A DNA stretch of 64,000 nucleotides from Hexactinellida sp. DTS-2022. Its lineage: Eukaryota > Porifera > Hexactinellida. A program made the position numbers and the translations under genes. Under the pieces are notes generated by a model that saw nothing but the letters and a program-made list of their open reading frames with translations, did not search any database and was not told the origin of the DNA. This document shows, piece by piece, positions 1,669 to 58,399 of the stretch. The DNA lies in NCBI GenBank assembly GCA_028753945.1, contig JAPNXP010000001.1:4144501-4208500 (forward strand), written 5' to 3'. How positions within the stretch are numbered: the first letter of the stretch is position 1; every line of letters begins with the position of its first letter.

Positions 1669-2823
1669 TATATTCATATTAAGAATCGCTTATTGTGTCC
1701 GTTATAAAGAAGTAGGATATAATGAATCCCCAATACGGGTAAAGTAATTTATTTTACACCGCTTATAACGAACTACAGTTAGTATATCGAAGTAAATGAA
1801 GGGTCCAAGCACTTCGTTAAAATGGGAAATCACTGTCTGTATATATTAATAAAAACTGAAATTCCCAATTTCCAATTAATTTATAAGCAACATTAAATTA
1901 ATTTCATACAATTCTTATAGATTTGTGAAATGCACCAGAGGATTTGTTCTCTAAAAAAGAACGCAAGTCTGCTCAAAGTAGACAACCTTTAATCTGTTCG
2001 GAAGTAACAAAGTCAATTAATTTAATAAATTAAAGCCGCAGTATGGTAAATTCTGAAATAAAATAGAATAACACAATTTAAATTTAAAATATGATAATTT
2101 GTTCCAGCTGGAAGCAAATATTCCTAAAGGAATGAATCTCTTTAGTAACATTTTAAATTATTAATATATTTGGATTGTTAATAATAATGATTGTTGATAT
2201 AATATTTATTTGTGTCTACTCAAATAATGACAATTCAATTAATGGACTACCTACTAATAAACAATTCTAATAGGAAGAATGATTAACTAATCTCAGTTCA
2301 GAGTACGTACTATATCTATCCATAGCGGTATGATAAATTCAAATGAACCAGACAAAACATACATAGCTTTTAATAATTATTAGTATTATAGGTATGATTA
2401 AATTATGTTGTTCTATTAAAACAAAAACATTTAGCAGTTCCTAATTTAGTAGTATATCTATTACTTAACGTAGTTGAGAGAAAGCACGACGTATATTACG
2501 TACGTAATCAACCCATGACCTTTATACTTAGTCTGTGTTTATACAAACGAGGATACTAATAACAATAATTATTCATTAATGCAATGTGCTAATTGATATT
2601 ATAAGGCAAACACATTAATCTAAGTTTAAAGTCGGAGAAACAAACAGTAAATTGAATTTACAATGTTTTTAGCAATAATATATATCTACTGAAGTCTGTA
2701 ACGACAACTTAAAGGAATGTCTAATTGTTCAATTTTAATGTTAAATATAAATTTATAATATAAAGTTTACTTTAAGTATTCAGTGCAGTTGGCTCTATGC
2801 CCAACAATATAGGATATGGTTAC

Positions 2824-3803
2824 CTGGTCTGGAGGGAGTTCCCCTGTCTCTACCAGCTCCTCGACCTCGACAATAGTTATGTCGCTAGCCTTAGCCATAG
2901 GCGCATTGAAATTCCTGGCTGCCATCCTATATATGAGGTTGCCTTGGTGGTCAGCTCTCCACGCTTTGATGAGAGAGAAATTTCCCCTCAGAGCAGTCTC
3001 TAGGATATACTCTCTGTCTCCAAACTGTCTGGATTCGCGAGGAGAACTAGATATCTGGGGTTTTCCAGTTTTGTCAAACTTTATAGGTACGCCCCCCTGT
3101 TGAATGGGAGTGCCAATACCAGTCGGGGTGTAGAAGGCGGGAATACCAGCCCCTCCTGCTCGGATGCGCTCAGCTAAAGTCCCTTGAGGTATTAGCTCGA
3201 CCTACAAGATAATAGGATGTATAGAACAAGATCTATCGATCTAATTTAGTGACACCCAATAATATATTTATTATACTGCTCAGCTTAAACTGGGACAAAC
3301 TGCCTGAACCCAACTGCTTTCTAGTTTTGTAACGGAATTAATATAATAATTAATTAATTAAGGTTCTCTGCATGCGGATATATAACAATCACCTCAAGTT
3401 CGCCATCCAAGTACTGCCGTTGGAACTCCTTGTTCTCTCCCACATAGCTGGACATCATCCGTTTGACTTTGCGTGCGTTAAGGAGTATGCCTAGTCCGAA
3501 CTGATCAGTTCCTGCGTTATTGCTGACGCAGGTTAGATTGGATAAGTCTGAAGTCGCAATCGCTTGAATCAAGTTCTCTGGGATACCACAGAGACCAAAT
3601 CCCCCAACCAGAAGCCTGTCTCCATCTTTTATATCTCGAATAGCTTCCTCTACCGTACCGCACAATTCTGCTCGACGCAAGTGAGAGAGAGTAAGACAGC
3701 GGACAGGTACGAGCCGAGTCAGAGACAGTCTAACTAATAGCCTGGGATAGCTGCTGCGGAGCAGAATATTCATAAGAGCTAATAAATACTTAGACTGTAA
3801 CAT
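2824..3803 (-). CDS. OXCT1: Succinyl-CoA:3-ketoacid CoA-transferase (SCOT), 5' exons 1-2, unit 1
   Basis: This mitochondrial enzyme transfers CoA from succinyl-CoA to acetoacetate in ketone body use. Exon 1 (3393-3803) starts at the first ATG, giving an Arg/Leu/Ser-rich N-terminus that looks like a mitochondrial presequence; a second ATG at 3770 is a possible alternative. It carries the class I CoA-transferase signature GGFGLCGIP and the SSYVGEN block. Exon 2 (2824-3201) continues with the AGGAG/FYTPTG region and ends at PPDQ. Both junctions are GT-AG and phase 0 (donor after GELE, acceptor before VELIPQG). The C-terminal exon with the catalytic Glu should lie left of the window. It is in view for unit 2, where the full gene is described. 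Confidence 0.93.
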
Positions 3804-3821
3804 AACGTAGTGTAATGACAC

Positions 3822-6474
3822 GTTATTAACTTATTTCAAAAGAATACATAATCTAGATCTGTAGAGGGCAAATTAGGTCAAATGACATTGCATTGGATCG
3901 ATGGATGGAAAGATCCAAATTCCCTAAAGTTATGGAATAATGGTGTCAATTCATTACGCGAAAATCTTGTCCATTACCATGAAAGGTAAACAGTCAACAA
4001 CCGTTAATACAAATTATCAAGGGAAAATAAATTTGGTCGATTTAGCGAAGGTTAGAATTCAAGGATGTTGACTGCACCTATAAATTTTCGTTATTGGATA
4101 GAACTTTGAGATCTGACAGACAAATAACCAGTTCATACGGATTCCGAGAACCAAATGTTATAGCGGTAGTTGCAGCTAGATTTGGAATTAAATTCCTATT
4201 TCTAGACGAAAGAGTGAGTCTGTATATACTTTCAAGAAATATTTGAAGACATACCTATTTAAAATAAGTGAAAATGATATATGGCTCTAAATTGGGTTTT
4301 TCTAGATACATTAGCTATTAGCTCTATCATCCCTTCTTTGTGCACAACAAACTATTATTTATGTACATATTCTGTACTATTTATTTTTACTTGTAAAGCG
4401 CATATATTAATAGTACAATGTACAGCACTGCAAACAAATGAAATTTGGCATCTAATTTATCTATAGCAATTCGTTAATTTAATAAATTATAAAATAATAG
4501 TACTTATTATATTAGTTATAAAGCTAATATCCATTGTCATAACAGTTGACTGCATTTGTTGTATTCAGTTGTGATAGTTTACGCCTTATGGAGATCTTAG
4601 TAATTAATTAATTAAGCTAATAGCTACTTCAATAAACTATTTATATTTGTTCATTGTCAATGTAAAACTTCCTTACGTATAAATTGATTTGGTGGTGATA
4701 AAGAGTTACACTTCGAATGGTTAATGAGTACCAAAAGTGTAATCTTATATCAGCCATGAAAAACAGAACCAATGACACTATGTACAACTATACAGTCTAA
4801 TAAGTACGCAAATGCTGGATTAAAAAAGATATGGAAGTCATGCAAAGATATCTATTCATTTTTATCAGGTTTCGGAAACTTTAAGAATGTCTAAGGCACA
4901 CATGGTTCATTTGATGATAAAAGCATATATTTCTGTATTATGAATAATAATTCCATCATCCGAAATACAAGTGTAACTAGTTGGGATTTCAGTTGATTCA
5001 AGTTCTGAAAGAAATGTATTATAACTAGGTCTTAGGTCGCAGAAGAAACTCCAGAAACCCTGACTACACAGAATACATTATATCAATGTCTAAATAATTA
5101 GAGAATACATTAAAAATGAAAGAGATGCTTAATTATCCTATAGAGGTAGTTATTCTTATTAATTAACACAACTAATCTGTAACTTTTCGCACTTACTGGA
5201 GGAAATTTAAAAAATAATAGTCAACTGCTAATACAGTACATCCTCAATAATTCGAACCCTCGTTAATCCGAACTGGAGATCCCAAGATATATTTCAAATA
5301 TAAGTGGGAAAATAAAAAATAGCTCTTAGAGGTCGCAACGGGCCTATATCTTCGGCCCGATTTTACTCTTAATGTAAATTAAGTTCCCTTTTCAAACAGT
5401 TGATAAATAAAAAAATACTAATTTAATGTATAATGTGTTAGTTAGAACTAAGCCAGCGATTCCAAATCTGGGGTCCATAAATCTCTAGGAGGTCCCAGTG
5501 GCGTCCCACAGACCCACAAATCTCAAAATCTGTATTATGGGCAATGGGATGGGGCCACGAAATGTGGGCATTAGTTATAGGGGTCCACGGTTGAAAAAGG
5601 TAGGGGATCGCTGAATTAAGCTAAACTATAAATCCACGGCATAACTGTACTTTACTTAAATAAGTAGAGTGAATTCCTGATGACGATATCTTGTAACTTC
5701 TATAAATGAATTTAGGTTTGTTGAAATTAACTCCAAGTAACAAAATTTTGTTATTATGTTTTCTTTTAAACTTAATAGTTGAGCAATGAATAATAAGCAA
5801 ACTGAATAACTCACTAAATTTGTGGTCTCTCAACAAATTAGCTGAGGAATGTAATCGTTAGACTATCACATTCCATATAAATAAACTTAAATTACTGGAC
5901 AATTGATATCTCGTGACCTCGCGGCCTCGCCAATTAATTAATCTTGTATACCTATTCTCTAACTAAGTTCGGTGTAGGTGACAGTTTCTAAGAATTGAAA
6001 CTTGCTGAAATTATTGTACACGAGATTTTTTTAAAACTAGTGGACAAAGGAGATAAATTAAGTAATTTAGGCGTGTAAACTTTCACTTACAATCAAGGAA
6101 GGTTTAAATATAATATTATTTATAAGTTATTAATTATATTTTGTCAAAAAGTACATTAGAGGTGGGGAATTGTCGATGAGGATCAGAAATAATGTAAAGA
6201 TTATATACATTAATCTAGATTATTTGTTAGTGTGTTGTTGACAAAATGGAAACAAACATTCTTAGTCGTTGTTTGAAACAAATAAGAACATGCAAATTAG
6301 TAGAAATTATTAAAGTGACAGACTAATTGGCAAAGAGTATCCTGGGGCGACAGAAATTTGATTAATTAACACTTAACATGGCGTGGCATCCATTAGTAAG
6401 AATTATATCTGATTAATAAGTTTACAATAACTTAAAAATGCATAAACAAATTCCAATGTAAAGAATTTGTAATA
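3822..6474. other. Intergenic DNA between SCOT and the TASOR-like gene
   Basis: AT-rich DNA in which I see no exon. It contains the hAT-like MITE at 5454-5613 and, at about 5244-5365, a degenerate element with AATTCGAACCCTCGTTAATC resembling a Tigger-like terminus, followed by a CGGGCC/GGCCCG hairpin. The SCOT promoter should lie at its left edge. The copy in unit 2 is 37859-40511. Confidence 0.6.
5454..5613. mobile_element. hAT-like MITE, 160 bp
   Basis: The element begins CAGCGATTCC and ends GGGGATCGCTG, so the outer 8 bp are inverted repeats, with a further GGGGTCC/GGGGTCCAC pair inside. Flanking 8-mers AACTAAGC and AATTAAGC differ by one base, matching the 8-bp target duplication of hAT elements. 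It has no coding capacity. Confidence 0.75.
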
Positions 6475-57113: not shown

Positions 57114-57420
57114 CTCAATATTGCCATGGTGGATCAAATTGACCATAGTCTAAAATGTTTCACAATTGACCCCAGTCAAAAACTATATTTTTGAGCTCAA
57201 AGTTGACTCCACTGTGTCAAGAACGCAGAGCCGGATTAACCACTAAAGAAAGACCGCCAGGCCTACATTTTCATAATTTTTTTCGAGGTGTAAGTATAAA
57301 ATGTGTTTTATAATCAGGACTATTCCCCTTATTATTATCTAAATTCCTAGTAGAGCTGTTGTATAAAATTTGACCCCTCAATAGAGAAACAATGGACACA
57401 CAGGAGTCAATATTCTACGC
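56400..57420. other. Unique flank: unidentified GC-richer block and microsatellite
   Basis: From about 56440 to 56760 the composition rises in GC compared with its surroundings (for example GGCCCCCTGACTGCGAACC and AGCCGGTGACACCC). It looks like part of a transposon or untranslated region, but I cannot identify it. A (ATA)n microsatellite follows at 57037-57113, then a fragment with CAGAGCCGGATTAACC (57226), a motif common at hAT-like ends. No exon was seen. Confidence 0.45.
57037..57113. repeat. (ATA)n microsatellite, 77 bp
   Basis: About 25 uninterrupted copies of the trinucleotide ATA/TAA. Confidence 0.98.
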
Positions 57421-57467
57421 TACTGTTATAGATATCACCTATAGTCTTCAGTACTGTCCTTGGGAAA

Positions 57468-57616
57468 GGCAGTAGGTGGCAGTACGGGACACTACATGAG
57501 TAAGTCTGTAGGGTTAGTCCGGCAGTACAACTGGTAGCCATAGTCTAGGACTATGGATACATGGGCAGTACGGCACTCGCAGGAGCTACGGGCTGGAGCG
57601 AGAGGTGCGGCAGTAC
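57468..57616 (+). repeat. Phased GGCAGTAC repeats leading into the hammerhead
   Basis: GGCAGTAC occurs at 57478, 57521, 57564 and 57609, that is at spacings of 43, 43 and 45 bp, with a variant GGCAGTAG at 57468. The sequence between copies is mostly unrelated. One interval contains a perfect hairpin (CCATAGTC-TAG-GACTATGG, 57538-57556), and another hairpin with a GGG loop lies at about 57452-57474. The last copy abuts the hammerhead by five bases. Confidence 0.75.
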
Positions 57617-57620
57617 GCAT

Positions 57621-57672
57621 GGTGGTCGAGGGTTATCCTCCTGATGAGTCCCTGCAATGGGACGAAACCACT
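57621..57672 (+). ncRNA. Type III hammerhead ribozyme
   Basis: All three stems and the full catalytic core can be read. Stem III is 57621-57626 with 57667-57672 (GGTGGT/ACCACT, five pairs plus a G.T). The cleavage triplet GTC ends at 57627. Stem I is GAGG/CCTC (57628-57631 and 57637-57640) closed by a five-base loop. The core CTGATGA is 57641-57647. Stem II is GTCCC/GGGAC (57648-57652 and 57659-57663) with loop TGCAAT. The core GAAA is 57664-57667. Stem III is the open stem, which makes this type III. Self-cleavage is expected after C57627 of a plus-strand transcript. Stem I and stem III are short; loop-loop contacts cannot be judged by eye. Confidence 0.85.
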
Positions 57673-57840
57673 CACATAACATCCCTATGATTTGAGGTAG
57701 ACTAAAGCGGCTAGTCTTCATACTAATGCGTGACCTCATCTCGTATCACTACCTGTATAGGAATACTAATAGAAAATTGACTCTACTCTGGAGATTACAA
57801 ATTCTTTAACTGTGATATGACGACACACATGATGTAAATA

Positions 57841-58013
57841 CAGTGAACTCTCGTTATAGCGGTTGGGTGGGACCTGTAATTTCCTTCGTTATATCCGGAT
57901 ATTCGTTATAAGCGGATAATAATTAATGCACATAGTGCTCTGGGAGGAAATCTCCATTTCGTTCTAAGTAGGTATTTTGTTATATCCGACTTCGATATTA
58001 CGGGAGTTCACTG
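57841..58013. mobile_element. Tigger-like MITE (TTCGTTATAACG family), outside the duplication
   Basis: It begins CAGTGAACTCTCGTTATAGC and ends TTACGGGAGTTCACTG, with TA on both sides (57839-57840 and 58014-58015). The interior shares TTCGTTATATCCGGATATTC and GTGCTCTGGGAGG with the other members. Confidence 0.9.
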
Positions 58014-58399
58014 TATGTTAGATAACATAAGTATTAACTACATCAAACAAGTCTCGTTTTATGAAAATTGCTACTTAAGTACACTGTATAGCACAGATAA
58101 TAATGATAGAACACGTATCAATACAGCTAATCATCTCATGTGGCAAAAAAATTAAGCTAATTTTCATCCAACAATGTATTACACATTCCAAATTAAATAA
58201 ACACAATGAAAATTGTTTGAATAGAAAAAGAGTAGTAATTCCAGCAAGTAATACTCGTATAACGAGATTCAGTTTGATTATGAACGACTAAATTAGGAGT
58301 GGAAATAACAAAGAAAAAGGACTATGGATGAATTATACGTAAGTGCAGTTGACATTTTGCCTATTAGTTGTCAACTTTAAACGTGAAAAAATGTAATTG

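Follow-up and report, generated by a model that had tools for sequence, protein, structure and literature searches.

A type III hammerhead ribozyme in a probable LTR-retrozyme-like element of a sponge genome

Plant LTR retrozymes, as described in the accessible text of their defining study, carry type III hammerhead ribozymes in their LTRs and have 4-bp duplications, a polypurine tract, Ty3/gypsy-like ends and a tRNA-Met primer site (Cervera, Urbina, de la Pena 2016, PMC4918200). The retrozymes of animals, by contrast, are presented in the available portions of PMC7229834 and PMC7761336 as having type I hammerheads and being without LTR, primer site or polypurine tract, and the accessible part of a 2024 review gives the same picture (PMC11722881). 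The preliminary description of the locus studied here had held that animal hammerheads are mostly of type I, a statement that agrees with what is accessible of PMC7229834, PMC7761336 and PMC4918200 and is qualified by type III hammerheads in dipterans, a termite and HDV-like agents (PMC7936874) and by an atypical, discontinuous type III hammerhead in mammalian Clec2 genes (PMC6155905). Insect elements with type III hammerheads are mentioned in the available text of one review, which cites work in preparation (PMC7761336), and a 2011 survey reports many metazoan hammerheads, with sponges not named in its accessible part (PMC3088659). Our search of the literature, mostly without subscription papers and with no preprints, found no hammerhead ribozyme in Porifera, the "sponge" mentions that we checked in the hammerhead literature being microRNA sponges in reference lists. 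An LTR retrozyme in any animal was likewise not found in the accessible text of this literature, which is no proof of novelty.

The stretch of DNA analysed here (the window, 64,000 nucleotides) encodes a TCTP with matches at 89-65% identity, for which the closest named relative is that of the glass sponge Oopsacas minuta (60%); identity is 43% to the fishes Esox and Hypanus and 42% to a Drosophila. It also encodes a protein with ankyrin repeats and a match to PUFD (BCORL-PCGF1-binding) slightly below the cut-off, as well as bZIP and bromodomain proteins. The relationship of the TCTP and the ankyrin and PUFD protein bear out the earlier assignment to an animal genome, and the host is an animal and probably a hexactinellid sponge, as judged mainly from one protein, the TCTP. 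Two parts of the window (1-22362 and 34038-56399) are direct copies of 22,362 bp with 100% identity, to be explained by a duplication of very recent date or by an error of assembly.

When the whole window was scanned with cmscan against Rfam at gathering thresholds, the sole match to any family was Hammerhead_3 (RF00008) at 57620-57673 on the plus strand, scoring 55.8 bits against a cut-off of 48.5 (E-value 1.1e-9) and spanning model positions 1-54 of 54. A covariance-model scan of this kind had been proposed in the preliminary description, and its full-length match upholds the claim made there that all conserved core positions are present in a type III topology; on reading the sequence, the coordinates, core and stem lengths given earlier also proved correct (Table 1). 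Our own descriptor of the core and three stems fits a single place in the window, the same ribozyme, and found nothing on either strand of 150 random sequences of 64 kb generated at the dinucleotide frequencies of the window. Judged from its sequence, the motif is a genuine type III hammerhead for which self-cleavage is predicted.

Table 1. Positions in the window of the ribozyme, its parts and the unit that contains it
Feature	Position	Strand	Basis
Solo LTR-like unit, 325 bp, TGTTATAG...CGTATCA	57424..57748	+	Alignment with other copies stops at both ends
5' target-site duplication CTAC	57420..57423		Sequence; 4/4 match
3' target-site duplication CTAC	57749..57752		Sequence; 4/4 match
Type III hammerhead ribozyme	57621..57672	+	RF00008 match and covariation over 37 distinct copies
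Predicted cleavage site, after C57627	between 57627 and 57628		Read from sequence
Stem III, 5 bp, plus G57621-U57672	G57622-U57626 / A57667-C57671		
Stem I, 5 bp, last pair G-U; loop UUA	G57628-G57632 / U57636-C57640		
Core CUGAUGA	57641-57647		
Stem II, 5 bp; loop UGCAAU	G57648-C57652 / G57659-C57663		
Core GAA	57664-57666		

The preliminary description had also proposed a search of the genome for other copies, with attention to compensatory changes in the stems, and both are found. In the 112.4-Mb assembly (18 contigs), 64 of 68 scored matches passed the RF00008 cut-off, a lower bound since these 68 were drawn from 12,319 first-look candidates; the window's own copy is absent from that list. 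Rfam scans of 20 loci gave 22 matches, 15 of them at places outside the 68-match list, with zero matches in L069 and in two Ty3 elements (L057 and L058), and the two scans tallied together give at least 79 hammerheads above the cut-off besides the window's. For covariation, 53 copies were reduced to 37 distinct ones over 55 bases in a gapless alignment, in which 99.3% of the 555 stem cells are standard pairs, a proportion that falls to 47-65% when partners are slid. Changes on both sides occur at 5 of the 15 pairs (matched by 1 of 500 shuffles) and in 19 cells versus 3.8 in shuffles (reached by 0 of 500), counts that are not to be taken as probabilities since the copies are kin. The hammerhead structure thus appears to have been kept by selection. 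Over 45 distinct copies, with the window left out, identity to the window is 94% in the ribozyme, 50% in the 52 bases before it and 58% in the 54 bases after it, the two flank values being lowered by indels in an ungapped register. The Hammerhead_HH10 model had zero matches in this genome and also zero in control genomes, which gives that result little weight, and an exact 26-base ribozyme pattern returned 0 matches in IMG/VR viral contigs. We also observed a second group of hammerheads, at L016, L033 (3889-3942, minus strand) and L013 (1527-1580, plus strand), with stem III GGGGU/ACCCC, other flanks and CCCCACTAG after the core.

Around the ribozyme lies a mobile element that was absent from the preliminary description. 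Its 325-bp unit has TG...CA ends and a GC content of 0.50, versus 0.33 in its flanks, and its near full-length matches in the genome are 79-89% identical (40 of 376 candidates scored). As in plant LTR retrozymes, the target-site duplications are of 4 bp: they are perfect, and differ in sequence from unit to unit, at 17 of the 20 solo units with recognised ends; the remaining three agree at 3 (L038), 2 (L078) and 1 (L030) of the 4 bases. This comparison started from 67 copies and yielded 30 distinct rows, the rest having no recognised end or repeating a row, and 10 of the 30, being composite inner junctions (L012, L040 five times, L047, L049 twice and L066), were not counted as solo. Unit ends were set from alignments and end motifs, the latter written after the ends of some of those copies had been seen, and automatic end finding by inverted repeats (8 of 12 bases) was discarded as mostly noise after candidates also appeared at 210 of 500 random centres. 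For the window copy, the best reading is a solo LTR of an LTR-retrozyme-like element, and since this copy has one ribozyme and no second cut, it would not release a unit; at most, transcripts reading through it would be cut.

Several other repeats were seen in passing. Right after the window's LTR, at 57838-58016, a short element bounded by 24-nt inverted ends (complementary at 88%) contains GTTATA repeats and resembles a pogo/Tigger-type MITE. Part of the LTR (query positions about 95-152) occurs seven times at a spacing of about 44 bp at G000 C1:17175811-17176387, a small satellite derived from the element, and at L034 other DNA, including a second unit (duplication GCAT), interrupts a retrozyme-type unit (duplication ATGT), forming nested insertions.

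Among the loci read, the only clean two-LTR copy is L049, in which two 330-bp LTRs enclose 174 bp of non-coding interior within an outer duplication, TACT. Its LTRs differ at 1 of 330 bases, marking it as a young copy, and each carries a ribozyme above the RF00008 cut-off, the two lying 504 bp apart, so that a type III hammerhead is found in direct repeats within the 300-400 bp of the LTR-retrozyme definition. The 504-nt unit has a GC content of 0.54 and a predicted circular fold of -203.7 kcal/mol (z -5.3 against 60 shuffles). At L040, a five-unit composite (+ + - - -) with outer duplication CTAT, the direct pair is spaced at 486 bp, leaving an interior of 161 bp (486 minus the 325-bp unit); both interiors thus fall short of the non-coding 300-600 bp by which LTR retrozymes are defined. 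L066 consists of an LTR, the interior and a diverged, truncated second LTR, and L067 of one LTR and part of the interior. The 174-bp interior has six matches (two in L049, two in L066, one in L067 and one 51-base piece), and since only three places outside L049 contain it, intact full copies are rare.

The interiors of L049 and L040 end with a polypurine box, AAGGGAAGGTGA, immediately 5' of the LTR, which corresponds to the Ty3/gypsy-like polypurine tract expected before the 3' LTR of an LTR retrozyme. The junction AAGGGAAGGTGA|TGT is present in L049, L040 and the Ty3 element L057, has one mismatch in L058 and is degenerate in L066. With at most one mismatch, the box and TGT occur at 20 places in the genome, versus 9 for a reversed control. 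Two of the 20 are preceded, at a distance of 1.06-1.17 kb and on the same strand, by a gypsy integrase zinc-binding match, and both of these (L057 and L058) are elements with paired LTRs (about 187 and 173-176 bp) and the box directly before the 3' LTR. They have reverse transcriptase and protease matches, integrase core (rve) matches below the curated cut-off, frames in several pieces and flanks that, by eye, match at 3 of 4 bases; Rfam found no hammerhead in their LTRs. The 13 box places that we looked at comprise four in retrozyme-like copies (three in L040, one in L049), these two Ty3/gypsy elements, L064, whose context is like that of L057, L065 and L059-L063. At L065 (about 1215), a retrozyme-like internal end with the polypurine box precedes TGTCACAGGGCATCAC, and a core pattern search found no hammerhead in that stretch. 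L059-L063 are five copies of one unclassified repeat sharing the box AGGGGAAGGTGATGT, upstream of which no retroelement reading frame was seen. Elsewhere, the box at C6:2826725 has an integrase match 1.5 kb away on the opposite strand, and that at C15:3248381 lies 2.7 kb upstream of an integrase match.

Priming is where the sponge copies depart from the plant elements. No TGG-type tRNA primer site is present in the first 40 bases past the LTR in L049, L040 or L066, and L067 has a TGG only about 35 bases past it, so that the tRNA primer site of LTR retrozymes (tRNA-Met in plants) is missing as judged by TGG alone. The two Ty3 elements have, after their 5' LTR, a stretch that could pair with the interior of the LTR, 14 nt long in one (0 of 300 shuffles) and 12 nt in the other (1 of 300), whereas in L049 and L040 such complementarity extends over just 7 and 5 nt (reached by 154 and 284 of 300 shuffles; 51 of 300 for L049 when the LTR end was placed exactly and the shuffle was simpler). 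The pattern in the Ty3 elements resembles the self-priming known from Tf1. Since it is clear in these elements and unseen in L049 and L040, the apparent priming site is not shared; what retrozyme-like copies and Ty3 elements have in common is the polypurine box and the LTR ends.

In copies read with an interior or an inverted partner, the end of the LTR instead leads into a hairpin, of which the far arm is complementary to that end, and all eight copies folded have a strong fold here although their sequences differ, with the stem hardly entering the LTR in L047. Such pairing is automatic in inverted dimers, which makes L049, L066 and L067, as direct copies, and the direct part of L040 the informative ones. 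L025 and L048 each consist of two units arranged tail to tail around the hairpin, with duplications CGTA and TGAA, respectively, while L012 and L047 have a similar inverted arrangement in which no outer duplication is clear. Units joined tail to tail in inverted orientation and flanked by 4-bp duplications, as in L025, L040 and L048, are not a normal LTR product. One tentative explanation, which we hold possible without favoring it, is an animal lineage of LTR retrozymes in which tRNA priming has been replaced by the hairpin built into the LTR end. The 3' arm of the hairpin would serve as its own primer for copying, and snap-back synthesis may then yield inverted palindromic dimers that acquire target-site duplications; recombination or a DNA transposon route could yield the inverted dimers instead.

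We consider it likely that the ribozyme is part of the LTRs of a small retroelement without coding capacity, one working like a plant LTR retrozyme. The observations on the element are of its DNA anatomy and of ribozyme covariation only, and the cycle would run as follows. In a transcript with two LTRs, both hammerheads would cut and free a unit of about 490-500 nt (504 in L049), which a host ligase may circularize. The putative circular RNA would be reverse-transcribed by Ty3/gypsy enzymes as candidate helpers, and the cDNA would be integrated with a 4-bp target duplication, the solo LTR in the window being the presumed end product. The family would accordingly be called a variant working like an LTR retrozyme and not a plain member, because its tRNA primer site and interior length miss the plant definition.

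Chance resemblance, which the preliminary description had called very improbable for this core with three stems, is as good as negligible given the E-value of the Rfam match, the empty result in random windows and the dozens of covarying copies. Retention for a host function, as a cis-acting cutter of a transcript, would fit the intact state of every core position in the window copy, but that copy belongs to a dispersed repeat, is flanked by a target-site duplication and has no open frame of at least 150 aa over it, and we regard this role as very improbable. Two described kinds of hammerhead element were set aside on structure: a metazoan non-LTR retrozyme (type I, tandem, no LTR) by the type III match and the LTR structure, and a Penelope-like element (minimal type I in terminal repeats) by the canonical type III motif, the TG...CA units and the 4-bp duplications.

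The remaining alternatives concern the kind of mobile element. Ginger-like DNA transposons use a gypsy-integrase-type transposase and have 4-bp duplications and TG...CA ends, and the units might be MITE-like, non-autonomous dependents of such a transposase with the hammerhead as passenger. The inverted composites with outer 4-bp duplications (CGTA in L025, CTAT in L040, TGAA in L048) raised this reading, and the unit ends, both TGTNATGAG-like, form terminal inverted repeats, short and imperfect, that also fit it. However, a direct LTR-interior-LTR copy (L049) that has a duplication of its own and LTRs that are nearly identical, the polypurine box shared with Ty3/gypsy elements before the 3' LTR and a conserved, covarying ribozyme that implies an RNA stage all speak for a retroelement, and the two-LTR copy together with the box reduces the transposon to an unlikely rival. 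The LTR might also come from an ordinary autonomous Ty3/gypsy element with hammerheads in its LTRs, of which the small copies are deletion derivatives. In L013, a hammerhead (2501-2554, minus strand) directly follows a frame on the same strand whose RT_RNaseH match is weak (20.6 bits, cut-off 24.8), and an RVT_1 fragment is nearby, also on the same strand (29.7 bits, cut-off 29.6). In L018, the strand opposite to two hammerheads carries an integrase zinc-binding match at a distance of about 1 kb. Yet neither L013 nor L018 has a repeated pair beyond about 50 hammerhead bases: in L018 (2501-2867, minus strand; 3639-4670, plus strand), which has the gypsy integrase match, the two hammerheads, 313 bp apart, share only that much. 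With no repeated pair except the hammerhead itself, we read the hammerheads beside these coding remnants as probable insertions. Hammerheads are also absent from the LTRs of both paired-LTR Ty3/gypsy elements read (at least 150 integrase matches were listed and three places read), and the clean young copy L049 has just 174 non-coding internal bases; a derivation from autonomous elements therefore seems quite improbable.

The LTR-retrozyme-like reading places the sponge family closest to the plant elements. As far as the accessible text of PMC4918200 describes them, the two have in common type III hammerheads in LTRs of about 330 bp, 4-bp duplications, a polypurine tract, a non-coding interior, solo LTRs, a GC-rich and strongly folded unit and Ty3/gypsy-like ends. 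Unlike the plant retrozymes, the sponge element has an animal host, a hairpin begun inside the LTR end in place of the tRNA-Met site, an interior of 161-174 bp versus 300-600, a unit of about 490-500 nt versus 600-800, and inverted dimers. With the metazoan non-LTR retrozymes, as available from PMC7229834, it shares an animal host, a small non-coding element and a unit of a few hundred nucleotides, but these have type I hammerheads, tandem copies, low GC and, when duplications are present, longer ones, and are given there as without LTR, primer site or polypurine tract. The type III hammerheads of dipterans, the termite and HDV-like agents also occur in animals but have an atypical long helix I and a loop-loop pseudoknot, and no LTR element is described for them in the accessible part of PMC7936874. 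That of Clec2, again type III in an animal, belongs to the 3' UTR of a single gene, has a very large helix I and is neither dispersed nor mobile (PMC6155905, accessible text). Bivalve TRIM elements are likewise miniature non-coding animal LTR elements with solo repeats, without mention of a ribozyme in the abstract of PMC6934838.

In the sources as far as accessible, retrozymes divide into LTR elements with type III hammerheads in plants and non-LTR elements with type I hammerheads in animals, and the sponge element, if read correctly, breaks this division. The finding is relevant to the question of whether self-cleaving circles of the viroid-like kind had one origin, spread by transfer or originated repeatedly, and an early-branching animal would be a new host in which to seek such circular RNA. 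This host, in which the genome is small, one copy is young and Ty3 elements are resident, would make the question directly testable.
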